A stretch of 35,094 nucleotides of DNA. It comes from Nitrospirota bacterium. Lineage in GTDB: Bacteria > JACPQY01. The stretch covers positions 1 through 35,094 of the forward strand of contig JACPQY010000085.1 of the NCBI GenBank assembly GCA_016190245.1, in the 5' to 3' direction. A program made the translations under genes and the position numbers. Below the pieces are notes generated by a model. The model was given only the letters and a program-made list of their open reading frames with translations. It had not been told where the DNA came from and ran no database searches. Each line of letters starts with the position of its first letter. The stretch's first letter is position 1. Below are positions 11,323 through 35,094 of this stretch, piece by piece.

Positions 11323-14285
11323 GGACCGGGAGTCGGCGGAGAAAACGCAAAGGCCGGAACAGCTTTCTCGCACGCGGGCCGGCGGACCCGCCAGTTCTGA
11401 AATCCCTCTTGCTGCTCGCTGCTTACTGCTTACTCGGCTTCCATGCCTGCGCCGAGCCTTCGCGCGGGACCGGCAAAGTGATCGACTTCCCCGTCACCGA
11501 GCGCATCGAAGCGGACGGGCTCTCCGCCGCGGTCGAGGTGGTGCGGGACCGCTACGGCGTTCCCCACATCTACGGCGCATCGGAAGGCGATGTCGCCTTC
11601 GTACAGGGCTGGATCCACTCGCGGGACCGCCTCTTCCAGATGGTGGTCCAGCGCGCGGCGGCGCTCGGCGAGACGGCCGTCCTCATCGGCGCGAGCCGCA
11701 TCCCGGACGACATCCTTTCCCAGATGTTCAAGTTCAAGGACGTCGCCCTGAAACTCTGGGCAAGCGGCACCACCGAGGACGAGCGCGCCTTCCTTCAACG
11801 CTACGCCGACGGCGTGAACGCTTCGCTTCGCGCCATGCAGCCGCAGGACCTCCCGCTCGAATTCCTCGGCCAGGGGATCAACGATCCGGACACGATCTAT
11901 AGCCAGCTCCTCCGGATCAATGACAGCCAGGACGGATGGAGCCCCATTGATACGATCGCCTTCGCCCGCCTCATGACCCACCAACTCAGTTTCGATGACG
12001 AGGGCAGCGAAGGGGAGCGATTCGAGGCGATTCTGAAGTACCTCGCCCCGGAGTTGGTCAAGCGCGGCCTCGCGACCAGCGGCACCGCCGCTCAACTCAC
12101 GGCGCTTTCATGGCTCAAGGACCTCTATCCAACAGTCGGCAACACCGCCGCCATCATTGATCAGCCCGGCACGTACGGTCGGCGCGAGTCGGCGCCCGGC
12201 CGCTGGCGGGCCTCACGCTCCCGACAGACTCGCACGGCTGCGACCGAAGGCACGCGCGCGCTCGGCCGCTACGTCGAGGACCTGCGCTCCCTCACCGGCC
12301 TCGTGCCCGCGTCCAACAACTGGGTCGTGCGCGGAACGATCAGCGAATCCGGCCACCCGATGCTGGCCAACGACCCCCATCTCTCTCTCCAAAATCCACC
12401 TGTCTTCCACGAGGTCCACATCAACACCAAGGAAAAGGGCGGAGACCTCAACGCAGCGGGCGTGATGTTCCCCATGGCACCGGGAGTGGTGATCGGTTTC
12501 AACGAACGCCTTGCGTGGGGAGACACCGTGGTCGGCTACGATGTGACGGATTTCTACGTGGAGCCGGTGGTCTCCGGGGACGGCCCACCCGAAAAATGGA
12601 TGATCAAAAGCCAGGGCCGGGAGGACGTTGCCCTCAAGGCCGTTATCGGCGGCTCGCTGTACAACTCTCCCGGCGGGACCTGCTCCCTACCCGCCCAAGT
12701 CCAGCAGCGGTTGGATGAAATGCTTGTCACGGTCACGTCGAACAACCCGTTCCTGGGCCGGTGCAAGCTCGACTTCCGAACCTACGAAGTCGCCGGCCAC
12801 GGCCCCGTCGTCCACGTCTCGCGAGACGACAGCGGCAAACCGACCTCGCTCATCACCGTGAAGTGGACAGGCATGGAACCGTCCGCGGAGCTGCGCGCGT
12901 TCCATCGCTACCTGACGTCCCAGACGATCCAGGACTTCGAGGCCGCCGTCTCCGAGTTCAAAGTCGGCGCGCAGAACCAAGTCGTGATGGATGCGGACAA
13001 CAACATCGGCTGGTACCCCAACGCCTGGGTGCCAAGACGCGATCCCCTGACCTGCAAGGATCCCAGCGGCCTTTCCGTCCCCTTCTACCTCCCCCAACCC
13101 GGCACCGGAGTGTGCGAGTGGCAAGGCATGATTGACGAAAACGACCTCCCGCGCCTCAAGAACCCCGAACGCGGCTACATCGCCACCGCCAACCACCAGC
13201 CCACCGCCAGCAAATCCTACTATCACGGCTCGTTCTACGACATCGGCTACCGCGGCGCGCGGATCACGCAGCTTCTGGAAGAGAAGAAGAACGCCGGGAA
13301 GATCGGCGTGGCGGACATGAAACGGATCCAGGCGGACACGCACCTCCTCCTGTGCGATGACTTCCTTCCCGTCCTCAAGTCGGCCATCGCGGGCCGAGCG
13401 GCCGAGGCGGGAGCTTCCGGGGAATCCGCCGGCTCCCTCCTCAACGACTACGACTGCTCCTCCCCCTCCGGCTACACGTACGACCGCCTCCGAGGCGCGG
13501 ACTCGCTCGACGTCTCGGCCGATCCGAAAGAACGCGCGCGCTCGGCCGCCGCCTCAATCTTCCATTCCTGGTTCTCCAACTTCGTTCACCTCACCTTCGA
13601 TGACCAGCTCGGCGGGCAGAACCTCGCCGGGCAACAGTACGCCCGCGCGATCTACACGATCACGTTTCGCAAGAACTGCGCGGACGGCGCGCTGAGCTCC
13701 GGCGAACCGTGCCAATCCTCCGGCACCGCCGCCACGGGCACGAGTCCCTTCTGGGATGATTGGTCAACGTCCGACACGATCGAATCGCGGGACGATATCG
13801 CCCGCCGCGCCTTTGCCGACGCGCTCGCCGGCCTCACTGTCAAGTTCGGCACACCCGACCCCTTGCAGTGGCTCTGGGGCCGTCTTCACACCCTCACCGT
13901 CCGCCACTTCGCCTCGGACACCTTCAACAGCCCCTCTCCCTCCGAAAAGCGATTCCAGGAACTCGGACTGAGCGGCTTCCCCCGCCCCGGCGGCGCCTTC
14001 GTGGTGGACGCCTCCGACCCCGGCTTCGGGGTGATGAATGCGGCCACCCAAGCCGACTACGCCTACCGCTCGGGACCGTCCTACCGTCTCGTGGTGGAGA
14101 TGACACCCTCCGGCCCTGAAGCGCACACGGCGCTCCCCGGCGGAAACGTCGCCCACCTCCGCAGCGCGTTCTACGACAACCAACTCCGCGAGTTCTGGTG
14201 GGCTAACCAGTACAAAGAATTTCCTTTCACCAGGGACGAGGTCGAGAGGGCCGCCCGCGAACTCTTCCTGTTCGCCCCGAAATGA
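11319..14285 (+). CDS. Penicillin/AHL-acylase-type Ntn hydrolase
   Basis: A 988-residue precursor of an N-terminal-nucleophile amidase. The alpha-chain motif RDRYGVPHIYGASEGDVAF...QGWIHSRDRLFQM is clear. The autocleavage site and nucleophile are Ser332 in VPAS|NNWVV. His23 of the beta chain (His354 in NDPHLSL) resembles AHL and cephalosporin acylases rather than penicillin G acylase. GFNERLAWGDT follows. The substrate may be an N-acylated lipid, peptide or signal, but it cannot be read from sequence. GTG 11319 overlaps the DUF1302 stop. The N-terminus is odd: a 27-residue Arg-rich leader, then LKSLLLLAAYCLLGFHAC, encoded by a repeat shared almost base for base with the secretin junction at 33554-33616. 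A canonical lipobox is lacking, so lipidation is doubtful, but export is likely. Confidence 0.88.
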   Translation: MRTGSRRRKRKGRNSFLARGPADPPVLKSLLLLAAYCLLGFHACAEPSRGTGKVIDFPVTERIEADGLSAAVEVVRDRYGVPHIYGASEGDVAFVQGWIHSRDRLFQMVVQRAAALGETAVLIGASRIPDDILSQMFKFKDVALKLWASGTTEDERAFLQRYADGVNASLRAMQPQDLPLEFLGQGINDPDTIYSQLLRINDSQDGWSPIDTIAFARLMTHQLSFDDEGSEGERFEAILKYLAPELVKRGLATSGTAAQLTALSWLKDLYPTVGNTAAIIDQPGTYGRRESAPGRWRASRSRQTRTAATEGTRALGRYVEDLRSLTGLVPASNNWVVRGTISESGHPMLANDPHLSLQNPPVFHEVHINTKEKGGDLNAAGVMFPMAPGVVIGFNERLAWGDTVVGYDVTDFYVEPVVSGDGPPEKWMIKSQGREDVALKAVIGGSLYNSPGGTCSLPAQVQQRLDEMLVTVTSNNPFLGRCKLDFRTYEVAGHGPVVHVSRDDSGKPTSLITVKWTGMEPSAELRAFHRYLTSQTIQDFEAAVSEFKVGAQNQVVMDADNNIGWYPNAWVPRRDPLTCKDPSGLSVPFYLPQPGTGVCEWQGMIDENDLPRLKNPERGYIATANHQPTASKSYYHGSFYDIGYRGARITQLLEEKKNAGKIGVADMKRIQADTHLLLCDDFLPVLKSAIAGRAAEAGASGESAGSLLNDYDCSSPSGYTYDRLRGADSLDVSADPKERARSAAASIFHSWFSNFVHLTFDDQLGGQNLAGQQYARAIYTITFRKNCADGALSSGEPCQSSGTAATGTSPFWDDWSTSDTIESRDDIARRAFADALAGLTVKFGTPDPLQWLWGRLHTLTVRHFASDTFNSPSPSEKRFQELGLSGFPRPGGAFVVDASDPGFGVMNAATQADYAYRSGPSYRLVVEMTPSGPEAHTALPGGNVAHLRSAFYDNQLREFWWANQYKEFPFTRDEVERAARELFLFAPK
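11392..11454 (+). repeat. Repeat-derived signal-peptide module (copy 1)
   Basis: These 63 nt match the reverse complement of 33554-33616 at 59 of 63 positions by eye. The centre is four heptads (CTTGCTG, CTCGCTG, CTTACTG, CTTACTC at 11408-11435). Both copies are read in the same frame and give VLKS..LLAAYCLLGF.AC. At the other locus this segment is the downstream end of a four-helix-gene cassette, so this copy may be a remnant of such a cassette. Weaker similarity extends about 25 nt upstream. Confidence 0.75.
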
Positions 14286-15647: not shown

Positions 15648-16520
15648 ATGAAACATCTGCGACCACCCATGCCGTGCTCGGTGAATCATCCTCAAAGTGT
15701 CCGATCCGTTCTGCGCGAAGCCCGGCTTCCGCTCCTGCCTCTCCTGCTCACGGTTCTATGTTCGCTGTTCACGATCCCGGCTTGCGGCGACGACGAGGAG
15801 GCCGGCATCACCGCCCCGGCCGGCTGCGAGTGGACGGACGCATGTCCGACCGGCTGGAAGAAGAGCGGGAACACCTGCGAGTACACGGCGGGCGCCACGA
15901 CCACGATCGAAGGCAACGTCGCCGTGTTTTCGTTCAACAGCCCCGTCGCGAATGCCGTCGTCAAGGTACAGAACTTCGGCACGGAACTGCCCGCGTGCGG
16001 CGTGTCCGATGCAGCCGGTCTCCTGAAGATCGAGGGCGTCCCGACGAACATCGATCCGACACTCGCCGCGAAGGCCCCCGATGCCTTCCTCGGCAAGCCC
16101 ACCTACACTTTCCATGCCGACTACGTCACGAGCCTCGCGGGCCCAATCACGGGAGCCACGGTTTACGTGATCAACGATCCCCTCGCCAAGATCTTCCTTC
16201 CGGCCCTGGGCATCACAACCGCCCCCCCAAGTGGACGCGGCTTTGTGGCCGGGGCAACGTACGACGCGGCCGAAAACCCCATCGGCGGGATCACCGCGTC
16301 AGCGAGCAGCACGGACGCCGGGACGAAGACGCTCTATACGGCCAACAACCTGCCCAATACCGCGGCCACGGAATCAGACGCCTCGGGACAATACATTCTC
16401 GCCGGCCTCCCCGTCGGTGAAACCACAATCACCGTCTCCAAGGGCGGTGCCGCCATCGGGAACACCAAGGCGATCGTCTACGACCAGGCGGTGACGTTGG
16501 CGAGTGTGGTGGTGAAGTAG
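15648..16520 (+). CDS. Putative lipoprotein with carboxypeptidase-regulatory-like repeats
   Basis: A 290-residue protein. AAAGGAGG lies 4 nt before ATG 15648. The N-terminus ends in LLLTVLCSLFTIPAC|GDDEE, a signal peptide with IPAC as a plausible lipobox. Next is a Cys-containing segment (CEWTDACPTGWKKSGNTCEY), then two beta-sandwich-like modules: VFSFNSPVANAVVKVQNFG...DAAGLLKIEGVP and ASGQYILAGLPVGETTITVSKGG, resembling carboxypeptidase-regulatory domains. The gene closes the DUF1302-acylase-DUF1329 operon, so the product may be a cell-surface partner. The DNA for the hydrophobic core is built of four in-phase heptads. Specific function is unknown. Confidence 0.65.
   Translation: MKHLRPPMPCSVNHPQSVRSVLREARLPLLPLLLTVLCSLFTIPACGDDEEAGITAPAGCEWTDACPTGWKKSGNTCEYTAGATTTIEGNVAVFSFNSPVANAVVKVQNFGTELPACGVSDAAGLLKIEGVPTNIDPTLAAKAPDAFLGKPTYTFHADYVTSLAGPITGATVYVINDPLAKIFLPALGITTAPPSGRGFVAGATYDAAENPIGGITASASSTDAGTKTLYTANNLPNTAATESDASGQYILAGLPVGETTITVSKGGAAIGNTKAIVYDQAVTLASVVVK
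15745..15772 (+). repeat. Four-unit heptad array within lipoprotein signal sequence
   Basis: TGCTCAC, GGTTCTA, TGTTCGC and TGTTCAC follow in strict 7-nt phase and match a rotation of the YTYACTG heptads at 32-34 kb. They encode LLTVLCSLFT, close to LLLTAYCSLV at the end of the four-helix gene at 31642. Only four degenerate units, so chance resemblance is possible. Confidence 0.4.
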
Positions 16521-18093: not shown

Positions 18094-18100
18094 CGAGGAA

Positions 18101-18614
18101 AAAGGCGAAAGGGGAAAGGGGAAAGACACCCCTCCGCCCGTCGCGAGCCGGGCGCCCCACCCGCGATCGGAGTCATCGGCCCGTTGGCACCTGGCTGCGG
18201 ACAGCCCTTCGAAACCCCGACAAGATGCGGCTCACTTCTTCCGCAGATCGCACCAGGCCCTCGAAGGCCGCACCGTCAAGATAGCCTTGGTCCCTAGCCA
18301 CATAGAGTTGGGAGCGGATCTCCCCGCAAGACCCCTTCGCAACGGCAAGAAAGCGGCTCAACTCAGCCCTTGAAGTTCGTTCGTATCCTTCAGCGATGTT
18401 GGACATGACCGAAACCGACGCTCTCCTGATCTGATCCCGCAGAGCGAAATCACGCGAAAAGGGAGAAGACTTTGTCGCGGCGTAGACGTCGCGAGCCAAC
18501 TCCCTGGCCTTTTTCCAGACGATCAAGTCTTCGAACCGGTCTCCACCCATCTCCCACCTCCCTTCACACGCCCCATTCAGTCCGATCCTCTTTCACCTTT
18601 CCCCTTTAGCCTTT
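18101..18614. mobile_element. Four-helix-gene cassette A with inverted AAAGGGG arrays
   Basis: The 26 nt at 18101-18126 match the reverse complement of 18589-18614 at 24 of 26 positions. Each end is a run of heptads (AAAGGCG, AAAGGGG, AAAGGGG). Between them lies a single four-helix-bundle gene. The cassette fits exactly between two functionally linked genes, ending 7 nt before the puuD-like start and 13 nt after the synthetase stop. No transposase is encoded. Mobility is inferred from the layout, shared with two cassettes at 31.6-34.2 kb. Confidence 0.55.
18173..18550 (-). CDS. Four-helix-bundle protein (S23/IVS family), cassette A
   Basis: A 125-residue protein of the 23S-rRNA-intervening-sequence/four-helix-bundle family, related in fold to Avd, the reverse-transcriptase partner of diversity-generating retroelements. 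Family signatures are FEDLIVWKKARELARDVY near the N-terminus, RRASVSVMSNIAEGYER near residue 42, and SRFLAVAKGSCGEIRSQL. GGGAGG precedes ATG 18550. These proteins are small, basic and thought to oligomerise and bind nucleic acid. Its position between two polyamine genes does not suggest a metabolic role; it is better seen as cargo of the repeat-bounded cassette. It is clearly more divergent than the two copies in the conjugation operon. Confidence 0.85.
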   Translation of the reverse strand: MGGDRFEDLIVWKKARELARDVYAATKSSPFSRDFALRDQIRRASVSVMSNIAEGYERTSRAELSRFLAVAKGSCGEIRSQLYVARDQGYLDGAAFEGLVRSAEEVSRILSGFRRAVRSQVPTGR

Positions 18615-18627
18615 GACCTTCTTGCCG

Positions 18628-22427: not shown

Positions 22428-23510
22428 TCACCGGTGGGAGACGCCGCCGTCTCCCACCGGCTCCTGCTGCGTCACGCAGTGACACGTCCCCAGTCCCCAC
22501 ACGAGATCCCGCGCCGGGATGCCGACCACCCGACGCCCGGGAAAAAACGACGCGAGCACCCGCGCCGCTTCGGCGTCCGCCGGATCGTCGAATACCGGAA
22601 GCAAGACCACCCGATTGCCGATATAGAAATTCGCGTAGCTCGCGGGAAGACGTCTGCCTTCATGCACCACCGGCCGCGGCATAGGCAACGCACACAGATC
22701 GAAGGGCCTACCCCGCGCATCGGTCATCCACTCAAGCCTGCAGCGGTTGTCCTCCAGGGCCCTGAAGTTCTCGTCCCGAGGATCGGCCTCCCGGCAGTAG
22801 ACGATCGTCCGCGGATCCACGAACCTCGCCAGATCGTCCACGTGCCCGTCCGTATCATCCCCGACGATTCCGTCGCCCAACCAGAGCACTTGGCGCGCGC
22901 CAAGATAGTCCATCAGCCGGCTCTCAATCTCCTCCCGCGAGAGTTGCGGATTCCTGTTCGGGTTGAGCAGACACTGCTCGGTCGTGAGAAGCGTGCCTTC
23001 GCCGTTGACGTCAATGGAGCCGCCCTCGAGAACCATCCCCGCCTGATACCTCGGCACGCCCAGCCACTCCGACACCCTCTCCGGTATCCGGTTGTCATTC
23101 TCGTAGGGCGGGTACTTTCCCCCCCAGGCGTTGTAGATCCAATCCGTGGCCGCAATCTCCCGCCTCGCGGCTCGCGGCTCGCCACTCATGACCTCCGACC
23201 TCTCCCGACTGCCGACTCCCGACTGCCGAACCACGAATATGGGTCCATGATCCCGCGCCCACGCGTCATCCGTCAGGGCCCGATAGAACTCCACCCGCGA
23301 CGTCAGCGCCCCAGCCGCCAACAACATCGAGCGCGCCTCCGCTTCCAGGCGCTCGTCTCGGGCGATGATCCGAACTTTCTCACTTTCCTGCAGCGCGGCC
23401 GTCATTTGCACCCACACCGCGGGAATACGCTCGATCATCCTCGGCCACGTCTCCGGGTTGTGCGGCCACGTCAGCCACGTGGCCTCATGCGGCTCCCATT
23501 CAGCGGGCAT
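22428..23510 (-). CDS. aguA: Agmatine deiminase
   Basis: A 360-residue agmatine deiminase of the guanidine-modifying superfamily, converting agmatine to N-carbamoylputrescine. Family motifs are MPAEWEPHEATWLTWPHNPETW, WARDHGPIFVV near residue 84, ATDWIYNAWGGKYPP near 121, LEGGSIDVNGEGT, GDDTDGHVDDLARF with catalytic His/Asp, and the nucleophile Cys in LGTCHCVTQQEP near the C-terminus. ATG 23510 gives the conserved start; upstream is an octanucleotide array. Residues about 95-119 are an insertion with no family counterpart, encoded by ten heptads at 23161-23230, yet frame and catalytic motifs are intact. It follows aguB in the same orientation. Confidence 0.92.
   Translation of the reverse strand: MPAEWEPHEATWLTWPHNPETWPRMIERIPAVWVQMTAALQESEKVRIIARDERLEAEARSMLLAAGALTSRVEFYRALTDDAWARDHGPIFVVRQSGVGSRERSEVMSGEPRAARREIAATDWIYNAWGGKYPPYENDNRIPERVSEWLGVPRYQAGMVLEGGSIDVNGEGTLLTTEQCLLNPNRNPQLSREEIESRLMDYLGARQVLWLGDGIVGDDTDGHVDDLARFVDPRTIVYCREADPRDENFRALEDNRCRLEWMTDARGRPFDLCALPMPRPVVHEGRRLPASYANFYIGNRVVLLPVFDDPADAEAARVLASFFPGRRVVGIPARDLVWGLGTCHCVTQQEPVGDGGVSHR
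22431..22460. terminator. Hairpin at the 3' end of aguA
   Basis: CCGGTGGGAGACG pairs with CGTCTCCCACCGG in a long GC-rich stem with a 4-nt loop, covering the last aguA codons. There is no U-tract, so it may be a 3' stabiliser, a repeat, or a weak terminator. The gap to the FapA gene (22269-22427) shows nothing further. Confidence 0.45.
23161..23230. repeat. Ten-unit heptad array inside aguA
   Basis: The 70 nt divide into ten consecutive heptads in strict phase: CGCCTCG, CGGCTCG twice, CCACTCA, TGACCTC, CGACCTC, TCCCGAC, TGCCGAC, TCCCGAC, TGCCGAA. They encode the residues of agmatine deiminase that have no family counterpart. The TGCCGAC/TCCCGAC class also appears inside the secretin gene near 33450-33492. 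Confidence 0.7.
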
Positions 23511-24825: not shown

Positions 24826-24884
24826 CCGGCCACACTCGGCCGTGATGAGTCATGTGTCCTCAGTGATGAGCCCTGCTTCCCTCA

Positions 24885-25008
24885 ATCCGCATTCCGAAAT
24901 CCGCAATTCAGAATCCGCATTCCTTCTTTCCCCTCCCGATTCCCGATTCACGAAGCCATCCCCTTTCCCTTCTTCCTCCCCCCTCACCCTTCGCTGTTCA
25001 CTCTTCAC
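24885..25008. repeat. Degenerate heptad tracts
   Basis: CAATCCG, CATTCCG, AAATCCG, CAATTCA, GAATCCG, CATTCCT run in 7-nt phase from 24885. CCGATTC heptads follow near 24938 and CCTTCGC, TGTTCAC, TCTTCAC near 24988-25008. Several consensus classes occur side by side. The rest of the 400-nt gap (24826-25225) holds the MITE-like element and no gene I can support. Confidence 0.6.
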
Positions 25009-25566: not shown

Positions 25567-26544
25567 TCACCTCATTTCCCCTTTCGGCTTTCCGCTTTCG
25601 GCTCCCAGCTTCTCCCCTTCCTCCTCCCAGACCCTCACACAGTTTCTTCCCCCTTCCTTGGCCTGATAGAGCGCCCGATCGGCCCGCTCGATCACACTCT
25701 CTCCCGTCAAACCCTCCGACGTCCCGTTTACCACACAAACCCCCACACTGACAGTGACCGTGAAGGCCCCCTCTTTCTCGACAAACGGTCCGGCCTCGGC
25801 GCTTTTCCTCATCCGCTCGCCCAACCGTAGCGCGGCCGACTCATCGGCATTGTTCGCCACGACCACGAACTCTTCTCCACCGAACCGCGCCAACACGTCC
25901 CCCTGCCGCACGCACTCTTGGAGCCGCCCGGCCAGTTCCTTGAGCACCCGATCACCGGCCAAGTGTCCAAACCGGTCGTTGACGCTCTTGAAGCGGTCCA
26001 CGTCCACCATCAGCACCGCAAACGAATCGCGGTATCGTCGGGCCAAGCTCAGCTTAGCGTCCAGCGCCTCCACCAAATAAGCCTTGTTGAAGACCTCCGT
26101 GAGACCGTCGCGCGTGGCCATCCGGTACATCTCATCCAACCAGGCCCGCTCGAGATCGTCGGCACGCAGGAACCTGAAGATCGTGCCGCCCACCTGGAGG
26201 CGATCCCCATCCCGCAGCGTCGCTTCGGTTACTCTGTCGAGGTTGACGAACATGCCGTTGCTGCTTTCAAGGTCGGTCACTCGGCAGCCGTCCGGCCCGA
26301 CATGAATCTCCGCATGCCGCCGCGAGGCGAACCGGTCGGTCTCGATCCGGATGTCCACACCCTCCCCGCGCCCGATGAGAATGAGCGGGCGATCCAGATC
26401 GAACCGGCGGCCCTGAAGATCGCCGTTGAGAACGACCAGGCAGCCTTTCTGCACGCCCGCTCGCGCTCGCGGTGAGACCTCTTCGAAAACGGTCGCTCCC
26501 TCGCCGTCCAGCGTCAGTTCGTCGGGATTGAAAGGATCACCCAA
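25567..26544 (-). CDS. FHA-GGDEF diguanylate cyclase
   Basis: About 325 residues. An N-terminal FHA domain is shown by ILIGRGEGVDIRIETDRFASRRHAEI, then SSNGMFVNLDRV. It is followed by a GGDEF domain: RDGLTEVFNKAYLVEAL, VLMVDVDRFKSVNDRFGHLAGD and the active-site ARFGGEEFVVV, ending with ADRALYQAKEGGRN. The GGEEF signature is intact, so it should make cyclic di-GMP from two GTP. FHA domains bind phosphothreonine, so a Ser/Thr kinase may control it. The start is uncertain; I use TTG 26544, which overlaps the upstream stop, while the frame is open to 26628. An RxxD inhibitory site precedes the signature at a usual distance (RLQECVRQGDVLARFGG). Confidence 0.88.
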   Translation of the reverse strand: MGDPFNPDELTLDGEGATVFEEVSPRARAGVQKGCLVVLNGDLQGRRFDLDRPLILIGRGEGVDIRIETDRFASRRHAEIHVGPDGCRVTDLESSNGMFVNLDRVTEATLRDGDRLQVGGTIFRFLRADDLERAWLDEMYRMATRDGLTEVFNKAYLVEALDAKLSLARRYRDSFAVLMVDVDRFKSVNDRFGHLAGDRVLKELAGRLQECVRQGDVLARFGGEEFVVVANNADESAALRLGERMRKSAEAGPFVEKEGAFTVTVSVGVCVVNGTSEGLTGESVIERADRALYQAKEGGRNCVRVWEEEGEKLGAESGKPKGEMR

Positions 26545-28950: not shown

Positions 28951-29010
28951 CCGAGACGCCCCCCCTCCGTATTTCGCCATTCGGAATCCGGTTTCTCCTT
29001 CTTCCCTGTT

Positions 29011-29038
29011 CGATTCTCGATTCCCGATTCTCGGTTCA
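29011..29038. repeat. Four-unit CGATTCY heptad array containing the traC stop
   Basis: CGATTCT, CGATTCC, CGATTCT, CGGTTCA lie in strict 7-nt phase. The traC stop (TGA at 29038-29036 on the minus strand) falls within the last unit. The array separates traC from the PilO-like start. Confidence 0.65.
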
Positions 29039-31642
29039 CGACCCCTTCCCCCTCCCCGCCGCCACGCCCATCGGATACTTCTCCGCGAGCATCCGCACCG
29101 CATCCACCTTGCTCCCCGTCTCCTTCACCGCGGCATGGAAGGCCTGCACGTCCGCCCCATCCGTGGTGGACACCCAGTACGAGACCGGGTCCGGCACGAG
29201 CCGGAGCACTCCGTCCCTCGTGGCTCCTTCGAAGGTTGTGAGGACGAACGCCTCGCTGTAGTACCCCTTGCGCATGTGCACGGTCTGGATCGTGCGCACC
29301 TGGTTCGGGTTGAGGTGCAAGTGCTTCGCCAGGGTCTCCAGCGCCTTCGGCTGCTGCTTGAGCAGGAAAAGGTTCGGAGCGTTCGAGACGATCGCCTCGC
29401 CGGCGGGGAACTGGACGAGATCGAGCACGTCCTGCGTGATCACAAACACCAGACCGGAGTACTTCCGAAACGTTTTGTAGCCTTCCTGGATGAAGGCCGC
29501 GGCGGCCGGGTCTTTCAGGAACGCCCACGCCTCGTCAATCATCAGGTACTTGCGGACGCCGCGAATGGCCTCATCGCGCACCACGCGGATGATCAGGTTC
29601 ATCACGGCCATCATGAGTGGTCCCCGGAGGTCGGGCTGGTCCTTGGCCTCGGTGAGGTCAAACACGGTCATCCGGTTTCCCAGTCGCAGCCTGGTCGGAC
29701 CGTCGAAAAATGCCCCGAAACGCCCCTGCCGCGTGAACGGATAGAGCTTCAGCGCAAGCCCCTCGCCCAGGCTCCCCTCCTCTTTCAGGGCTTGAGTGAT
29801 GTCGCTGACGAAGACCTCCTCGCCCCGCTTCCGCTCGAACGCCTTTCTCAGCGCGATCTCGAAGAGGACCTTCTGATCGCGCGTCACGGGCTCCTGACTC
29901 TCGGGGTCCCGCACCATCTGCGCGAGGAGGGGCACCCAGAGGGCCACGCTGGCGTCGTTCAGTTCGTCCGCAAAGGGATTGATGCATGTCGGATTCTTGA
30001 GAACGATCTGGGCATAGTCGCCGTCCAACATTTCACATAGTTTCTGGTAGGAGCCCCCAACATCTATGATGAACACGAACGGGCGCGGGTTCAGCCGTTG
30101 GGCCTGGATGAGCATGTCGTTCGTGAAGAAGCTCTTGCCGGCGCCGGAGGTGGCCAGGATGAGGCCGTGGGGGCTCGTGTCGCAGTCCATCGGGTCCGCT
30201 GTGACGGGCACGCCCAGGCGGGAGACATAGAGCTGGGTGGGCGTGCGCGTGCCCGCGAAGTACCCCCAGAGGGGGAGGAACATAACGAAGCGGTCGGAGA
30301 GGACCTTTCGCAGTCGCCTCAAGTACGTGTCGAGTCTCGGATCGAAGCCGAGGGGGAGGCTGGAGAGGAGGACCGGCAGAACCACGTCCGTCTCGATCGA
30401 GGCCGTGGCGCCGACGAACGAGAAGGCGCGCAGCAAGGCGTCGGTCGTCTCGGCTTGCTGGGCGGGGGGCGAGGACGCGACGACGTGGACGGCGAACGAC
30501 ACGATCCGGCGGTTTTTCCCTTCGATTTCCTTGAGAACGTCGTCCAGTTCATCCAGGATGACCTTGGCCGCGAGGTTCTCCTGGCCCGTGATGGACCGCG
30601 CCTGCCGTCCCGCCAGGAACCGCTTCGCGCCAAGGGCGGACTTGGACTCGGCCAACGTCAGGTTCACGAAGTTGATGGCGACCAGGAGGTTGCCCGTGTA
30701 CCGTTCGAGGAGGGTGTTGATCAGGGCGGGGCCGACACTCCCAGGAAGGCCCGTGAGGCTGAGGACCTGCGTGCACAGACCGTCGAGCAACAGGTGGTCC
30801 TCCCGAACCTCGCAGTTCCCGAAAGCGATCTGCTCGCGCAGCGGCCGCCCGTCCGGAATGAATCGTCCACCCCCACCTGCCTCCTCCCCCATCGAGGGGG
30901 AGGAACTTTTGGGCGCCCCCTCCCCCCTTGCGGGGGAGGGTGAGGGTGGGGGGTGATTCCCGAACGCGAAAGAGCGCGCCCTCCCCGGATTCAGCGCCCG
31001 GTACGCAATCCCCAACAGCCCCGTCATGTCGAGCCGCTCCGGGCGGAACCCGTACCCTTGCAACCCCCTCTCCAGCCCGAGCCCCTGCCGCATGAGGTCG
31101 GCCTTGCGCGCGAGGTAGTCCCGATGGATTTCGCCCGCGATCGCCCCCCGGCCCTTGGCGGCCCATGCCAGAATGCCGCCTGCCGTCCGCGTCGGCGGCG
31201 GCGAGATGAGCATGAGGTAGACCGCAAACCGGCGGCACCGGTACGGATCTCCCGGCCAGAAGCCGTGCACCGCGGCGTCGCGATATCGCGCCGACTTCCC
31301 CTCGCACAGCAGTGTTATAAGACTGTCAGGTGGGAGTTCCGAAGCACCCAAGAACTTGTTCAGAGTGTCATCCACGTCCCCGCTGACCTCGAGAAGGAAC
31401 TGCCCGCAGAACCCCTGGGGTATCTCCAGGAGCAGCCGCTCCACCACCTCGCCCATCCGAGCCTTTGCCTCATCCGAATCGGTCTCGCTCGGCACCGGCG
31501 AGATCCGCCAGCCCATCCCCAGCCGCCCGTCCACCTGGATGAACACCTGCCCATCGGGGTCGTAGTCGTAGTAGGGCAGCAGTTCGGCCACATCGGGGCC
31601 GCGATCATTCAGCGCCGCGAGGCGCTCACGGGAGATAGCCAT
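29036..31642 (-). CDS. traC: TraC/VirB4-family type IV secretion ATPase
   Basis: An 868-residue ATPase of the F-type TraC group, which energises pilus assembly and transfer at the inner membrane. The N-terminal TraC domain (LLPYYDYDPDGQVFIQVDGRLGMGWRI) is followed by Walker A (ATSGAGKSFFTNDML near residue 490) and Walker B (RKYLMIDEAWAF near 695). VFVITQDVLDL and NAPNLFLLKQQP complete the motor core. ATG 31642 shares one base with the stop of the four-helix gene (TGATG). Residues about 229-259 are a Pro/Gly/Ser insertion encoded by a GC-rich palindrome, in frame. Its last codon lies in a heptad array. Neighbours traB and traV-like support an F/SXT-type conjugation system. Confidence 0.93.
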   Translation of the reverse strand: MAISRERLAALNDRGPDVAELLPYYDYDPDGQVFIQVDGRLGMGWRISPVPSETDSDEAKARMGEVVERLLLEIPQGFCGQFLLEVSGDVDDTLNKFLGASELPPDSLITLLCEGKSARYRDAAVHGFWPGDPYRCRRFAVYLMLISPPPTRTAGGILAWAAKGRGAIAGEIHRDYLARKADLMRQGLGLERGLQGYGFRPERLDMTGLLGIAYRALNPGRARSFAFGNHPPPSPSPARGEGAPKSSSPSMGEEAGGGGRFIPDGRPLREQIAFGNCEVREDHLLLDGLCTQVLSLTGLPGSVGPALINTLLERYTGNLLVAINFVNLTLAESKSALGAKRFLAGRQARSITGQENLAAKVILDELDDVLKEIEGKNRRIVSFAVHVVASSPPAQQAETTDALLRAFSFVGATASIETDVVLPVLLSSLPLGFDPRLDTYLRRLRKVLSDRFVMFLPLWGYFAGTRTPTQLYVSRLGVPVTADPMDCDTSPHGLILATSGAGKSFFTNDMLIQAQRLNPRPFVFIIDVGGSYQKLCEMLDGDYAQIVLKNPTCINPFADELNDASVALWVPLLAQMVRDPESQEPVTRDQKVLFEIALRKAFERKRGEEVFVSDITQALKEEGSLGEGLALKLYPFTRQGRFGAFFDGPTRLRLGNRMTVFDLTEAKDQPDLRGPLMMAVMNLIIRVVRDEAIRGVRKYLMIDEAWAFLKDPAAAAFIQEGYKTFRKYSGLVFVITQDVLDLVQFPAGEAIVSNAPNLFLLKQQPKALETLAKHLHLNPNQVRTIQTVHMRKGYYSEAFVLTTFEGATRDGVLRLVPDPVSYWVSTTDGADVQAFHAAVKETGSKVDAVRMLAEKYPMGVAAGRGKGS
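30865..30957. repeat. Palindromic repeat inserted in frame in traC
   Basis: CCTCCCCC/GGGGGAGG (30883-30903) and CCCTCCCCC/GGGGGAGGG (about 30917-30940) form two stems. They are enclosed by outer CCACCCCCACC and GGTGAGGGTGGGG arms. This is the CCCTCACCCTCCCCC-type interspersed palindrome common in bacteria. It adds about 30 residues rich in Pro, Gly and Ser between conserved parts of TraC. Confidence 0.75.
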
Positions 31643-32082
31643 CAGACCAGTGAGCAGTAAGCAGTGAGCAGCAAGCCCGATGTCAGGCCTGAAGCGGATG
31701 AGACGCTTGCAGACATTCGCTTCAACGAGCGAATCAGCCCCGTCAACATCTTGCTGACGGAGACCGAGGTCTCTTCCAACCGCGTGTCCGTCCGATATTC
31801 CAGCAGACGTGCGATTTCAAGGTGCGTGTCAAGTTCGCTCAGCGAGCCCTGAGCATAGTGAAGGAAGTTCGCGAATTCCTTGCGCGTCTGCCGACCCGCT
31901 CCCTCGGCAATGTTCGACGCGATGCTGACAGCGGCCCGACGAGCCTGTGACGTCAGCCCATATCTCTCTTCCTCCGGCCAACTCCGAGTCGACTCATATA
32001 CAGCCTTGACCAGCATCAGGCTTTGCCTCCACACCTGCAGCCGTTTGTGCGGTTTCACACGGCCGGCGTCATGCTTCTCCAT
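31642..32082 (-). CDS. Four-helix-bundle protein (S23/IVS family), cassette B
   Basis: A 146-residue protein of the 23S-IVS/four-helix-bundle family. Signatures are PHKRLQVWRQSLMLVKAVYE, SQARRAAVSIASNIAEGAGRQT, EFANFLHYAQGSLSELDTH and SKMLTGLIRSLKR. AGGAGGTGG precedes ATG 32082. It is about two thirds identical to the copy at 33.6-34.0 kb by eye. The C-terminus runs into the left heptad array and becomes GLLLTAYCSLV, a hydrophobic tail not typical of the family, and its TGA overlaps the traC ATG. Members may bind nucleic acid; related Avd proteins assist retroelement reverse transcriptases, but no RT is present in this window. Confidence 0.88.
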   Translation of the reverse strand: MEKHDAGRVKPHKRLQVWRQSLMLVKAVYESTRSWPEEERYGLTSQARRAAVSIASNIAEGAGRQTRKEFANFLHYAQGSLSELDTHLEIARLLEYRTDTRLEETSVSVSKMLTGLIRSLKRMSASVSSASGLTSGLLLTAYCSLV

Positions 32083-32289
32083 CAGCCCACCTCCTCCTCC
32101 GTCCCTGTTCACCGTCTGACCGCTTACTGTCTTGCTGTTCACTGCTTACTGCTCACTGCCCACTGCTCACAGCTTACTGTCTTGCTGCTCCCTATCCTGT
32201 TGCTCCCTGTCCTGCTGCTCACTGTCCTGCTGCTCACTGTCTTGCTGCTCACTGCTTACTGCTCACTGTTCACTGCTCACTGTTCACTT
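31648..32289. mobile_element. Four-helix-gene cassette B with inverted YTYACTG arrays
   Basis: The left end is four heptads (CAGTGAG, CAGTAAG, CAGTGAG, CAGCAAG at 31648-31675). The right end is a long array of the complementary heptads (CTTACTG, CTCACTG, TTCACTG) from about 32104 to 32289. Thus the ends are inverted and surround one four-helix gene. On the minus strand, entry through the right array meets TGA/TAA in every frame, while exit through the left array is open. The downstream stop of the secretin (32277) falls in the right array. Confidence 0.55.
32173..32289. repeat. Heptad array with 15-nt higher-order units
   Basis: From 32173 five 15-mers follow each other (CTTACTGTCTTGCTG, CTCCCTATCCTGTTG, CTCCCTGTCCTGCTG, CTCACTGTCCTGCTG, CTCACTGTCTTGCTG), each a heptad plus an octad. 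Six plain heptads run on to 32289. Less regular units extend back to about 32104. The secretin's final codons and stop are embedded in it. Confidence 0.75.
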
Positions 32290-34007
32290 TGCCCCGTTCG
32301 CAGCACGCGCACGATGAAGACAGCCTGCTCCGTCCGCTCCGTATCTCCGAACCACCCCTTCTCCGTTGTGGAACCCGCGCCCGTGGAGACAATGAGCGGC
32401 TGGCCGATCTCCGCCGTGGACGTGGTGGAGAAACTGTGATTGAGGCGGTCGGCCACGCCCCCGGCCATTTCGACGATCACGCGGCCGGTGTTCGAGTAGT
32501 CCCGGTGCGGCGTAACGTACAGCTCCCAGCCGCCGGCCTGGGAGCCCGGCGAAGATTCAACCGCCATGTGGACCGTCCACCCGTTCAGCGCGACCACCCG
32601 CGGGCGCGACACGAGCCGGGCCTTTTCGGGCGCGAGCCCCGCCAGGAAGACGGCCGCGGGGTCCGTGTCCTCCCCCTTGAGTTTCCCCTCCAACGCGACC
32701 GGTCCACCGGGAAGGATCCGATCCAGACCGATCCGCTCCGCCACGCTTTCCCACGAGACTCCGTCCTTGCCCGGCGAGGCGAGCAGGATGGCCACCTCCA
32801 CCAGCCAGGGCTCCCGCGACTCGGCCTCGATCTGCCGGAAATAGCGGTCCAGCGCCCTTATGTTTTGGTGCTCGTCGCGCACGATGGCCGTGCCGCTGAT
32901 GGGATCCACCATCACCTTCCCCTCGGGGGAGAGGAACGAGCGGATGGAGTTCTGCAAAGCCGTGCCCGGGTCCTCGGCGTATCTCACGGTTACGCCACCT
33001 CCGTTCGAGCCGGGCAGCGCCGCGGGCCGACGCGCCCACACTTCGGGAAGGTAGAAGACCCTTTCGATGTACCTGCGCACGAGGGCGGTGTGCGCCGTGA
33101 AATCGAACTCCGCGGTGTATCCCGCCTGAGAAACGAGGCCGTCCACAGCCACGTGGAAGGGAATCTCGGTGAGGTCGGCTGATACCGCTCTCTCCGGGTC
33201 CACCCCCTCGTCCCACTTCACACTCCATTCCGCCTGCAACCCCAGCCTCTCCAGCGCCATTCGCAGAGGCAGACCGGCGGCTTGCAGCGTAACCGAAGGT
33301 GTCGCCCGGGCCATCATCTCCTCGCGATCCGACCCCATCCCGAATGCGCGGTCGAGATCCCGACTCCCCCTCTCATCCGACCTCTCGCCCTCCCCCCTAC
33401 CCCGGCTTCCCGGTTCTCCGCCGCGGCGGGCTCCCTGTTCCCTGGCTTCCCGACTGCCCACTGCCGACTCCCTCCTGCCGACTCCCGATTCCGCCACCGA
33501 CTGCATGATCGCCTTCTTCTCCTCCTCGTCCATCCCGTAACTGTCGGTCTTGCCGGCGCAGGCCTGGAAGCCGAGTAAGCAGTAAGCAGCAAGCAGCGAG
33601 ACGGATTTCAGAACTGATGGGGCCGCGAACCCGTTGCGAGCCGACTTCAGGGATCGAATCAAGCCTGTCAGCATCTTGCTGACTTCGGTTGTGCTCCGTG
33701 CGGCGCCGGAGTCCACCCGGTAGCCAAGCACGCCCGCAATTTCGAAATGGGTATCCAGCTCACTGAGTGAAGCTTGAGCGATGTGGAGGAAGTTGATGAA
33801 CTCCTTTCGAGTCTGGCGGCCGGCCCCCTCCGCGATATTGGCTGCGACACTGACAGCCGCCCGCCGCGCCTGGGAACTCAGCCCGTATCGTTCTTCTTGC
33901 GGCCACAGTGTCGTCATTTCATAGGTCCGTTTCACGACCTCGAGGCTTCTTTTCCAGACCTCCAACCTCTTGTGCGGCTTGAGATCATTCCGAACTGCAT
34001 CCACCAT
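32277..34007 (-). CDS. Four-helix-bundle domain fused in frame to a secretin-like protein
   Basis: One 576-codon frame. Residues 1-125 are a complete S23/IVS four-helix protein (PHKRLEVWKRSL, SQARRAAVSVAANIAEGAGRQT, SELDTHFEIAGVLGYR) with AAGGAGGG before ATG 34007. Residues 131-150 (SVLKSVSLLAAYCLLGFQAC) are a signal-peptide-like core. Residues about 172-215 are a low-complexity heptad-derived linker. From about 230, VTLQAAGLPLRMALERLGLQAEW, IPFHVAVDGLVSQAGYTAEF and ARLVSRPRVVALNGWTVHMAVESSPG...GQPLIVSTGAG...QAVFIVRVL match secretin N-domain and core. A secretin forms an outer-membrane ring and needs export, so ATG at residue 112 may be the real secretin start, or the fusion is not exported. 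The stop is supplied by a heptad array. Confidence 0.72.
   Translation of the reverse strand: MVDAVRNDLKPHKRLEVWKRSLEVVKRTYEMTTLWPQEERYGLSSQARRAAVSVAANIAEGAGRQTRKEFINFLHIAQASLSELDTHFEIAGVLGYRVDSGAARSTTEVSKMLTGLIRSLKSARNGFAAPSVLKSVSLLAAYCLLGFQACAGKTDSYGMDEEEKKAIMQSVAESGVGRRESAVGSREAREQGARRGGEPGSRGRGEGERSDERGSRDLDRAFGMGSDREEMMARATPSVTLQAAGLPLRMALERLGLQAEWSVKWDEGVDPERAVSADLTEIPFHVAVDGLVSQAGYTAEFDFTAHTALVRRYIERVFYLPEVWARRPAALPGSNGGGVTVRYAEDPGTALQNSIRSFLSPEGKVMVDPISGTAIVRDEHQNIRALDRYFRQIEAESREPWLVEVAILLASPGKDGVSWESVAERIGLDRILPGGPVALEGKLKGEDTDPAAVFLAGLAPEKARLVSRPRVVALNGWTVHMAVESSPGSQAGGWELYVTPHRDYSNTGRVIVEMAGGVADRLNHSFSTTSTAEIGQPLIVSTGAGSTTEKGWFGDTERTEQAVFIVRVLRTGQSEQ
33361..33492. repeat. CCGACTN-type heptad tract inside the secretin gene
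   Basis: Heptads related to TGCCGAC, TCCCGAC and TCCCGAT are clear from about 33449 to 33492. More degenerate CT-rich units reach back to 33361. They encode an Arg/Glu/Gly/Ser-rich linker (RRESAVGSREAREQGARRGG) between the signal region and the secretin domain. The same class lies inside aguA at 23200-23230. Confidence 0.6.
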
Positions 34008-34222
34008 GAGCTATCCCTCCTTCATTTCAATTCCGAATTCTTCACCTCTTACTGCTCACTGTTCACTGTTTACTGCTTACTGTTCACTGCTCACCATTCA
34101 CTGTTCACTATTCACTGATCACTCTTCACCCTTTACTCCTTGCCGTTCACTGTTTACTGCTCACTGCTTACTGTTCACTATTCACCATTCACTGTTCACT
34201 GCTTACTGTTCACCCTTCACAC
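33573..34222. mobile_element. Four-helix-gene cassette C with inverted YTYACTG arrays
   Basis: Left end: GAGTAAG, CAGTAAG, CAGCAAG, CAGCGAG at 33573-33600. Right end: 26 consecutive heptads at 34041-34222 on the opposite strand sense. A four-helix reading frame lies between and continues through the left end into the secretin. The left end with 19 nt outside and 16 nt inside is the 63-nt module also found at 11392-11454. The cassette lies between the traV-like gene and the secretin. Confidence 0.55.
34041..34222. repeat. Perfectly phased 26-unit heptad array (YTYACTG)
   Basis: All 182 nt divide into 26 heptads without any insertion or deletion: TTCACCT, CTTACTG, CTCACTG, TTCACTG, TTTACTG and so on. 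Substitutions are frequent but phase is never lost. The plus strand reads as repeated LLTAYCS/LFTVHCS in every frame. The minus strand carries TGA or TAA in every frame. Confidence 0.85.
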
Positions 34223-34228
34223 CTCGCC

Positions 34229-34669
34229 CTACGGGCGGCCCTCCGGCGCGGGCTTCGATTCCGGATGGAGGGGCAGCGGGGGGGCGGAACGCCCCGAGCC
34301 TCCCGGCCGCTCGAATTGGATGATGTCGGGATTCCACCGCCAGTCCTTGATCCTGTAGTAGATCCAGTGGCCGTTCACATAGATTTCCGGCCCCACCGTA
34401 TGGGGTGCAACCCACACTTCGATGTGTTCGGGAGGCACGACGAGGGGCACGTAGGGTTGCTCGTATCCGAAGGGGCGCTCCACTTTAAAGTGTTCCTGGA
34501 GATCCCGAATACCCTCTCCGGCTCCCTCCTTCAGCCCCTCTTTGAACGCATCGGCCGTGTTCTTTCCCTGGATCTTGGCGCTGCAGGCCACGCCGAGAGC
34601 GATGAGCGACAGGAGATGAGTAATGACGACCAGACGGGTGAATCGCCTCACCCCTCGGTTCTCGCGCAT
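34229..34669 (-). CDS. TraV-like conjugation lipoprotein
   Basis: A 146-residue protein. The N-terminal VVITHLLSLIALGVAC is a lipoprotein-like signal; the lipobox is loose. The C-terminal part (EHIEVWVAPHTVGPEIYVNGHWIYYRIKDWRW) resembles the end of TraV, where a VWIAPW...YVY.EI..RRW pattern is usual. TraV is the VirB7-like outer-membrane lipoprotein that forms the core complex with TraB and TraK. ATG 34669 overlaps the traB stop (TGATG). Order traB-traV-...-traC matches F/SXT-type operons. The final Pro-rich tail runs up to the heptad array. Assignment is by position and C-terminal pattern. Confidence 0.6.
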   Translation of the reverse strand: MRENRGVRRFTRLVVITHLLSLIALGVACSAKIQGKNTADAFKEGLKEGAGEGIRDLQEHFKVERPFGYEQPYVPLVVPPEHIEVWVAPHTVGPEIYVNGHWIYYRIKDWRWNPDIIQFERPGGSGRSAPPLPLHPESKPAPEGRP

Positions 34670-35094
34670 CACTCCACTCCCCCGAACAGGTTCGCAATCT
34701 CGGGAATGTCGACTCCCTCGCTGAGCATCAAGGCGGCATCAATGCCGCCGGGGATGTCCACTGTGGGCATGAGCCTGGCGGCCTCCTGCTGCATGAACTT
34801 GGCAATGTCCGCCATCGCCTGGCTCAGGGCCGACGTCCCCGCGTGCGTGATCGCATCGCCGGTCACGATCTGTCTCTCCGTCCCGTCCGCCGAAATCACC
34901 CGGGTCACCTCCTGGACGGCGAAGGCCTGGCTGAGACCCGCGGCAAACCCTGCTATGAAGCTGAGCCCCAGCTTCCGGCCCCGGCGATCCGTTACCTTCC
35001 CCGCGATGCCCAGCCCGCCATCCGGCCCTGCCACCCAACCCTGAAGCGGCCGATCCAAACTGCGGCCACCTGGGAAAACGCAACTGAAAAGTCG
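34669..35094 (-). CDS. traB: TraB/VirB10-family protein, C-terminal part
   Basis: The visible 141 residues are the C-terminus of a TraB-type VirB10 homologue; the frame stays open to the window edge, so the gene starts outside. It reads RLFSCVFPGGRSLDRPLQGW, then VAGPDGGLGIAGKVTDRRGRKLG and FIAGFAAGLSQAFAV, a pattern typical of TraB, where this domain forms the outer-membrane channel cap. The end, ARLMPTVDIPGGIDAALMLSEGV, corresponds to the family's last strand. TraB spans both membranes and forms the core complex with TraV and TraK. Its stop overlaps the traV-like start. Confidence 0.85.
   Translation of the reverse strand, partial: RLFSCVFPGGRSLDRPLQGWVAGPDGGLGIAGKVTDRRGRKLGLSFIAGFAAGLSQAFAVQEVTRVISADGTERQIVTGDAITHAGTSALSQAMADIAKFMQQEAARLMPTVDIPGGIDAALMLSEGVDIPEIANLFGGVE

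Follow-up and report, generated by a model that had tools for sequence, protein, structure and literature searches.

Three small genes of one family, distributed over a single bacterial contig, each stand between facing arrays of tandemly repeated heptanucleotides (heptads), which raises the question of whether such units are chance assemblages, fixed parts of the operons in which they lie, or copies of a mobile element. The window analysed here, i.e. the whole stretch of 35,094 nt under study, comprises positions 1-35094 of contig C79 (JACPQY010000085.1) in the draft genome of a Nitrospirota bacterium (G000; 3.29 Mb, 85% complete). The genes in question are of the S23/four-helix-bundle type (4HB; PF05635/TIGR02436), S23 being a small bacterial four-helix-bundle gene. 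A preliminary description of this DNA regarded the three units as cassettes that could represent an undescribed mobile element, moved in trans and perhaps through RNA; this interpretation is partly supported by the present study. We consider it probable (about 0.7) that the cassettes are individual copies of a small mobile element resembling the intervening sequences (IVSs) of rRNA, which carries one conserved S23 gene between heptad-array termini, is inserted mostly at gene-gene junctions and is co-transcribed with its neighbours.

The cassettes of the window

All three genes were recognized as PF05635/TIGR02436 members in profile searches (E 1e-31 to 1e-37). Re-examination confirmed the coordinates, the period of 7 and the inversion of the flanking arrays reported previously (Table 1), as well as the placement of one-gene cassettes at gene-gene junctions: in every case the 4HB gene is the sole gene of the cassette and is read from the same strand as both neighbours. 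No recognisable transposase was found in the three cassettes by reading of open reading frames (ORFs) and profile searches. No Rfam family reached its gathering score in the window, where the cassettes lie between protein genes and not in 23S rRNA. The facing arrays are inverted copies of each other (local complementarity 14.5-28.5, direct similarity at most 4). A scan of the window detected 14 period-7 regions, compared with a mean of 0.15 in 20 third-order Markov sequences; control periods of 5, 9, 10, 11 and 12 gave none, and periods of 6 and 8 one or two.

Table 1. Positions of cassette components and of the related empty junction in the window
Feature	Position	Strand	Evidence or remark
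Cassette 1, 3'-side heptad array, AAAGGGG on + strand	18094..18129	.	inverted partner of 18586-18620, score 21 vs 3 direct
Cassette 1, S23/four-helix-bundle gene, 125 aa	18173..18550	-	PF05635 E 6.9e-37, TIGR02436 E 2.1e-34
Cassette 1, 5'-side heptad array, purine-rich on gene strand	18586..18620	.	period-7 scan
Cassette 2, 3'-side heptad array, CAGTRAG on + strand	31643..31677	.	period-7 scan, inversion score
Cassette 2, S23/four-helix-bundle gene, 147 aa	31642..32085	-	PF05635 E 3e-34
Cassette 2, long 5'-side heptad array, YTYACTG on + strand	32104..32294	.	scan region 32132-32294
Cassette 3, 3'-side heptad array, doubles as lipoprotein signal peptide LLAAYCLLGFQAC of gene 32277-33576	33570..33604	.	
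Cassette 3, S23/four-helix-bundle gene	33597..34007	-	PF05635 E 7.6e-32
Cassette 3, long 5'-side heptad array	34041..34222	.	scan region 34042-34210
Empty junction, genes 34669-35058 and 34229-34672 overlap by 4 nt	34669..34672	-	same junction of G001 holds an internally deleted 4HB cassette

Cassettes 2 and 3 represent the same element in two copies. Their proteins share 61% identity, and their DNA can be aligned from array to array (659 nt at 67%, E 9e-41), with unrelated flanks. Cassette 1 and a fourth heptad-flanked cassette, located outside the window (C79:54094-54680, 4HB gene at C79:54276), differ from these in both heptads and 4HB lineage, and therefore several acquisitions are likely.

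Some of the arrays are translated. The 3' array of cassette 2, whose 5' array contains an irregular 14/15-nt version of the repeat in its middle part (32180-32240), is read by the 4HB frame as GLLLTAYCSLV, with a stop codon overlapping the start of a VirB4-like gene (29036-31642). Since one arm of cassette 3 doubles as the signal peptide of the next gene, the 4HB frame continues into that gene, giving an in-frame fusion (ORF 32277-34007).

Association of 4HB genes with heptad arrays

The preliminary description had proposed, as a check, that 4HB genes elsewhere be searched for heptad flanks. We gathered 4HB loci irrespective of repeats from distant genomes, from a scan of 84,980 species and as further copies in those genomes, and kept 82 loci once duplicates had been removed; 86 other ORFs of the same loci served as the control. 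A strict period-7 array was present within approximately 200 nt upstream of 49/82 genes and downstream of 51/82, on at least one side of 64/82 and on both sides of 36/82, compared with 12/86 control ORFs for any side and 2/86 for both (nominal p=1.5e-11 for the latter contrast). When periods of 7-9 were allowed, these numbers rose to 73/82 and 46/82, and periods of 5, 6, 10 and 11 gave no arrays around the 82 genes. In finished records, arrays accompany all 10 of the 10 plasmid-borne 4HB genes. Thus the heptad-flanked arrangement is general and occurs in many phyla, and a repeat-bounded cassette form in protein-coding operons does exist, as had been suggested.

The sequence of the heptads varies between loci, and the two sides of one gene are reverse complements of each other: the complementarity of a gene's own pair has a median of 18.5, compared with 8.0 for cross pairs, and in 46/82 loci it exceeds the 99th percentile. 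On the gene strand, upstream arrays are predominantly purine-rich (44/55) and downstream ones mostly pyrimidine-rich (purine-rich in 12/56). Sense orientation is favoured, 45/66 genes being co-directional with both neighbours compared with 39/83 in the control (p 0.013).

It could be argued that heptad arrays are simply common intergenic microsatellites, among which 4HB genes are found by accident. Such arrays are indeed numerous in G000, where the 275 kb scanned contains 37, most of them without a 4HB gene. However, the frequencies of two-sided arrays given above, together with the complementarity of each array to its own partner alone, refute this explanation, as does the fact that each of the four inverted pairs with a spacing of 0.4-0.6 kb in the same 275 kb encloses a 4HB gene. 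We therefore regard coincidence as extremely improbable. A single gene-less inverted pair, with its arrays 52 nt apart, was also found in the 275 kb.

Array density is several times higher on contig C79 (30 in 133 kb) than on the other sampled contigs of this genome (7 in ~142 kb). The window itself contains arrays without a 4HB gene, at 11405, 23153-23192, 23199-23232, 24880-24907, 25571-25610 and 29002-29041; those between 23153 and 29041 consist of heptads of other sequence and are situated mostly at gene ends. In two respects the preliminary description requires correction: arrays also occur without a 4HB gene, and the arm at 33570-33604 is also coding.

Empty and occupied sites

Evidence for mobility comes from related loci that differ in the presence of a cassette (L numbers denote fetched loci and G numbers genomes carrying 4HB genes, referred to as carriers). 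A 4HB cassette is present in plasmid C of Trichormus variabilis ATCC 29413 (L226), in strain 0441 and in Scytonema NIES-4073 (L249). The same plasmid site is empty in Nostoc linckia NIES-25, Fremyella NIES-3275, Aulosira NIES-50, N. carneum NIES-2107 and two Tolypothrix plasmids, the last two being judged by the search table alone. The empty site reads AAAAAGTAATTAACAAATAA, and the occupied site AAAAAGTAAT followed by an element of 423 nt (start AAATCAGAATTCAG, end GAGTTCTTCTTT) and then GTAATTAACAAATAA. The flanks are 96-99% identical, perfectly matching stretches of 175 and 67 nt border the junction, and a 5-bp duplication, GTAAT, is seen exclusively in the occupied plasmids. In the Scytonema copy, the 5' array is shorter by 14 nt, i.e. 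two heptads.

A second site (L224, L245), with unrelated flanks, is occupied by an element belonging to this family, the alignment covering nearly its full length (78% identity over 411 nt). Empty relatives of this site exist, and TTCTA is a probable duplication; one of these relatives, L247, has a different 4HB cassette at the adjacent junction. Beyond Trichormus, presence/absence was also found in Nostoc plasmids, Desulfacinum and Nitrospira. The cassette of D. infernum (G044, L180), whose array extends the C terminus of the preceding gene, is absent from two congeners. At the trxB-thiI junction of Nitrospiraceae, some genomes carry a 4HB cassette and the rest other short inserts, a distribution that requires at least four changes on the tree; this junction, with its many alternative short inserts, is too diverged for exact cassette ends to be defined. 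Presence/absence is likewise clear at Cas10-Cmr3, cas6-cas4, TraM and Aulosira junctions, which provide no clear ends for duplications. Genome G030 harbours four related cassette copies within 4.4 kb, one of them a 0.2-kb deletion form.

The single family relative of G000 compared (G001, 97% complete) shares the gene order ORF34669 - lipoprotein - secretin-like gene. Both genomes have a 4HB cassette between the lipoprotein and secretin-like genes, the heptads differing between the two, and the ORF34669-lipoprotein junction is occupied by an internally deleted cassette in G001, compared with the gene overlap in G000. G001 has a third cassette after the secretin-like gene, which matches the deleted cassette at 98% identity along 114 nt and so indicates recent copying. 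This comparison demonstrated no clean empty site for the three window cassettes. The empty state is not visible at the cassette 2 junction because G001 carries the VirB4-like gene on a different contig. The glutamine-synthetase-like neighbour, tried as an anchor for cassette 1, has no orthologue in G001 but merely a 32% homologue.

The cassette form is mobile, as the preliminary description had suggested: it is found at sites that are empty in relatives, has generated one clean 5-bp duplication and has been copied recently to different junctions. The orthologous loci with and without a cassette envisaged in that description were obtained for Trichormus, Nostoc, Desulfacinum and Nitrospira, but not for the three cassettes of the window; precise ends and a target duplication could be defined for the 423-bp Trichormus element with its GTAAT repeat, the duplication at a second site being probable and that at others unclear.

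The same junctions may be viewed differently, with the 4HB gene and its arrays forming an immobile RNA-processing or regulatory module of operon junctions, in which arrays grow by polymerase slippage and old 4HB genes have been variously lost. At the Nitrospira trxB-thiI and Desulfacinum L194 junctions a 4HB gene is indeed shared by several species, and short inverted heptad hairpins without a gene are found at these same junctions. This view is quite unlikely in the light of the empty relatives with nearly identical flanks and the 5-bp repeat confined to occupied plasmids, the occurrence of one element family with both ends conserved at unrelated sites, the 98% identical copies at two G001 junctions and the patchy distribution in Nitrospiraceae.

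Several minor features of these sites were recorded. In plasmid pNPM1 of Nostoc N6 (L244) the 4HB gene of the Nostoc element is interrupted by another short insert. At the trxB-thiI junction of L100, L103, L139, L144, L150 and others there is a different short element of ~140-230 nt, with the ends GGGATGCTCAAAA...TTTTCAGCATCCC, which resembles a miniature inverted-repeat transposable element (MITE) or a structured RNA. The 3' array of a Desulfacinum cassette (L042:5390-5562) contains ~23 perfect CTAACGC copies, a sign of very recent expansion.

Relationship to rRNA intervening sequences

In plasmid AZO_p2 of Azospirillum lipoferum a 4HB element resides within 23S rRNA (RF02541, 2529 bits), and its ends consist of the heptads GACGGAT/GACAGAG/GACGGAG/GACAGAA and their complement. 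The cell has another rrn copy, in which the flanks (737 and 691 nt) are identical and a 19-nt hairpin tip stands where the first copy carries the 473-nt element. The IVS at helix 45 of Coxiella burnetii contains tandem GACAGAT heptamers, variable in number between strains, ahead of the S23p ORF, and has a 28-bp terminal stem within which RNase III cleaves (PMC4990558). The Azospirillum IVS thus has the same kind of heptad ends as the cassettes, and on the basis of the Azospirillum and Coxiella sequences rRNA IVSs can be taken as one niche of the same element. In cassettes and IVSs alike, a single S23/PF05635 gene occupies an element of 0.4-0.5 kb with complementary ends capable of folding into a stem; unlike the IVSs, the window cassettes are placed between protein genes. 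The IVS literature searched describes no heptad arrays as element ends, no dispersal in operons and no target duplications.

The 4HB protein and the possible mechanism of transposition

The model of the cassette 2 protein is a four-helix bundle (pLDDT 86.5), for which the best solved structure is 2gsc (XCC0516 of Xanthomonas campestris; Z 19.8, 48% identity, sequence E 7e-29). Further fold matches are BT_0352 (Z 16.1) and Avd in the ribonucleoprotein of a diversity-generating retroelement (DGR; Z 13-14). The 4HB protein is under purifying selection: the nonsynonymous rate (dN) does not exceed one tenth of the synonymous rate (dS) in most estimable pairs, with a maximum of 0.15, dS not being estimable for two over-diverged pairs, that of cassettes 2 and 3 among them. 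The protein therefore matters to the element or its host, and may itself be a mobility factor. No catalytic motif could be named in it.

We propose the following scheme. The element would consist of a promoter-poor 4HB gene flanked by two arrays that face each other, with tandem units of 7 nt (rarely 8-9 nt). It is inserted usually in sense at junctions of co-transcribed genes and, in certain lineages, into a helix tip of 23S rRNA. It would be transcribed together with the host genes, and in the RNA the purine-rich upstream array could pair with the downstream array to form a long stem whose loop would contain the 4HB message. If rRNA IVSs are a guide, this stem would be cleaved by RNase III, leaving the neighbouring genes little disturbed. 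The 4HB protein is a likely mobility or processing factor, which may bind the repeated units as an oligomer, and insertion probably takes place at the DNA level. Array length would shift through slippage of whole units, and gene-less deletion copies would persist as array-only debris.

The likeness to Avd suggests another route, in which a retroelement-like unit is excised as RNA, bound by an Avd-like protein, reverse transcribed in trans and inserted. The protein shares the four-helix fold of DGR Avd (cassette 1 weakly matches bAvd and DivGenRetAVD), the classical site of the element is an RNA gene, orientation is mostly sense (45/66), and a co-transcribed cassette would require no promoter. 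Nevertheless, the reverse transcriptase domain RVT_1 was not found in 10 of the 17 carrier genomes searched, including G000, incomplete as it is, G001 and eight more. Of 25 loci scoring above the bAvd cut-off, 14 have a reverse-transcriptase YxDD motif within 1.5 kb; none of these 14 shows an inverted array pair (0/14) or complementary flanks (median 8.5), which distinguishes DGR avd genes from the cassettes and makes the array pairs specific to 4HB genes of the S23 type. Movement through RNA, as raised in the preliminary description, consequently appears unlikely, and a resident reverse transcriptase was rejected as the general mover, since it is absent from most carriers. At four DGR avd loci (L265, L267, L269, L275) a one-sided, pyrimidine-rich stretch with a periodicity of 8-9 nt lies upstream of the gene.

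The cassettes might also be mobilized in trans by a resident transposase, e.g. of the Y1 type (TnpA_REP/RAYT-like; RAYT, transposase associated with repetitive extragenic palindromic (REP) sequences), with the 4HB protein as a passenger or helper. Y1_Tnp genes are present in 15/17 carrier genomes, and G000 has eight, two of them on contig C79. They are, however, bordered by other inverted repeats, and heptad array pairs accompany 0/20 such genes in carrier genomes, so that a Y1/RAYT transposase was ruled out as the owner of the arrays. Moreover, carriers G043 and G060 have no Y1_Tnp genes, and IS200/IS605-type enzymes are not known to generate target duplications. Mobilization of this kind is thus quite improbable.

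Several observations weigh against our interpretation of the cassettes as mobile IVS-like elements. No cutting-joining enzyme was identified for the cassette. An unambiguous 5-bp duplication was found at one insertion only: the TTCTA of the second site could belong to an array unit, a third candidate (TAATG/TTATG) has a mismatch, and in the Azospirillum rRNA insertion 19 nt of the hairpin were replaced rather than duplicated. As the Nitrospira trxB-thiI and Desulfacinum L194 sites are common to several species, many copies are old. No array with a period of 7-9 is associated with 9/82 4HB genes, the bias towards wobble pairing on the sense strand is weak (118 vs 86, p 0.03), and p-values are nominal, since some of the loci are related to one another, as with the multiple Nitrospira copies at one site.

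Comparison with other repeats and mobile elements

Short tandemly repeated repetitive (STRR) sequences are heptanucleotide repeats of cyanobacteria. Like the arrays of the Xanthomonas and Beggiatoaceae repeats, they are intergenic 7-nt arrays, often in inverted pairs and with a variable number of units; what sets the cassette arrays apart from all of these is that they form the ends of a gene-bearing element. GGGAATC occurs in 70-75 inverted pairs per Xanthomonas genome (PMC4692102), and TAACTGA is repeated in Beggiatoaceae (PMC4679880); the main texts of these two papers make no mention of four-helix proteins, S23 or intervening sequences.

The cassettes also recall REP/REPIN sequences, RAYT and MITEs, in which short dispersed inverted structures occur in gene-less as well as gene-bearing forms, and insertion sequences or transposons, with which they share inverted termini, in this case arrays of varying length. 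They differ from the former in having no Y1 or DDE transposase and in their ends, which are tandem heptad arrays of variable sequence, and from insertion sequences in encoding no transposase. In the literature searched, coverage of which was incomplete, we found no paper that describes the element, and none that connects heptad arrays with 4HB genes or treats them as mobile, with the exception of the Coxiella IVS heptamers. In kind, the element is an extension of rRNA IVSs; in its operon form, as mobile DNA ending in tandem heptads, it appears to be undescribed, in agreement with the novelty suggested in the preliminary description.

A far broader generalization can be put forward tentatively, as possible but somewhat less likely than not to hold. 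S23/four-helix genes could be central to a class of mobile elements that has gone unrecognised throughout the bacteria, has tandem heptads at its ends and is moved by the 4HB protein itself via a mechanism unlike that of known transposons; rRNA IVSs would then be one niche of this class, and scattered heptad arrays (cyanobacterial STRR sequences, Xanthomonas GGGAATC pairs and others) largely its gene-less copies or debris. The present findings turn two older puzzles, how rRNA IVSs and their orphan S23 protein arose and where the heptanucleotide repeats of bacterial intergenic DNA come from, into one testable question, and they provide a functional hypothesis for a large protein family mostly labelled 'four helix bundle protein'.

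Additional observations

4HB genes within CRISPR, tra and other operons are probably passengers and not components of these systems. Cassettes in CRISPR operons were found in Picosynechococcus PCC 7003 (L227), Pseudanabaena galeata (L228) and Anabaena sp. 90 (H144), in the arrangements cas10-4HB-cmr3 and cas6-4HB-cas4, and related plasmids are without the cassette. Such insertions may account for the '23S rRNA IVP' listed among CRISPR-associated proteins (PMC10910872).

Stop-free, pyrimidine-rich heptad arrays are translated as lipoprotein signal peptides in the window (11405-11436, 15674-15760 and 33570-33604) and at two other loci (L219:9985-10050 and L217:7511-7580). The peptides made from arrays are LLLLAAYCLLGFHAC, LLTVLCSLFTIPAC, LLAAYCLLGFQAC and LITLHSSLFMSLPAC. 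These signal peptides, like the altered C termini, represent repeats turned into coding sequence.

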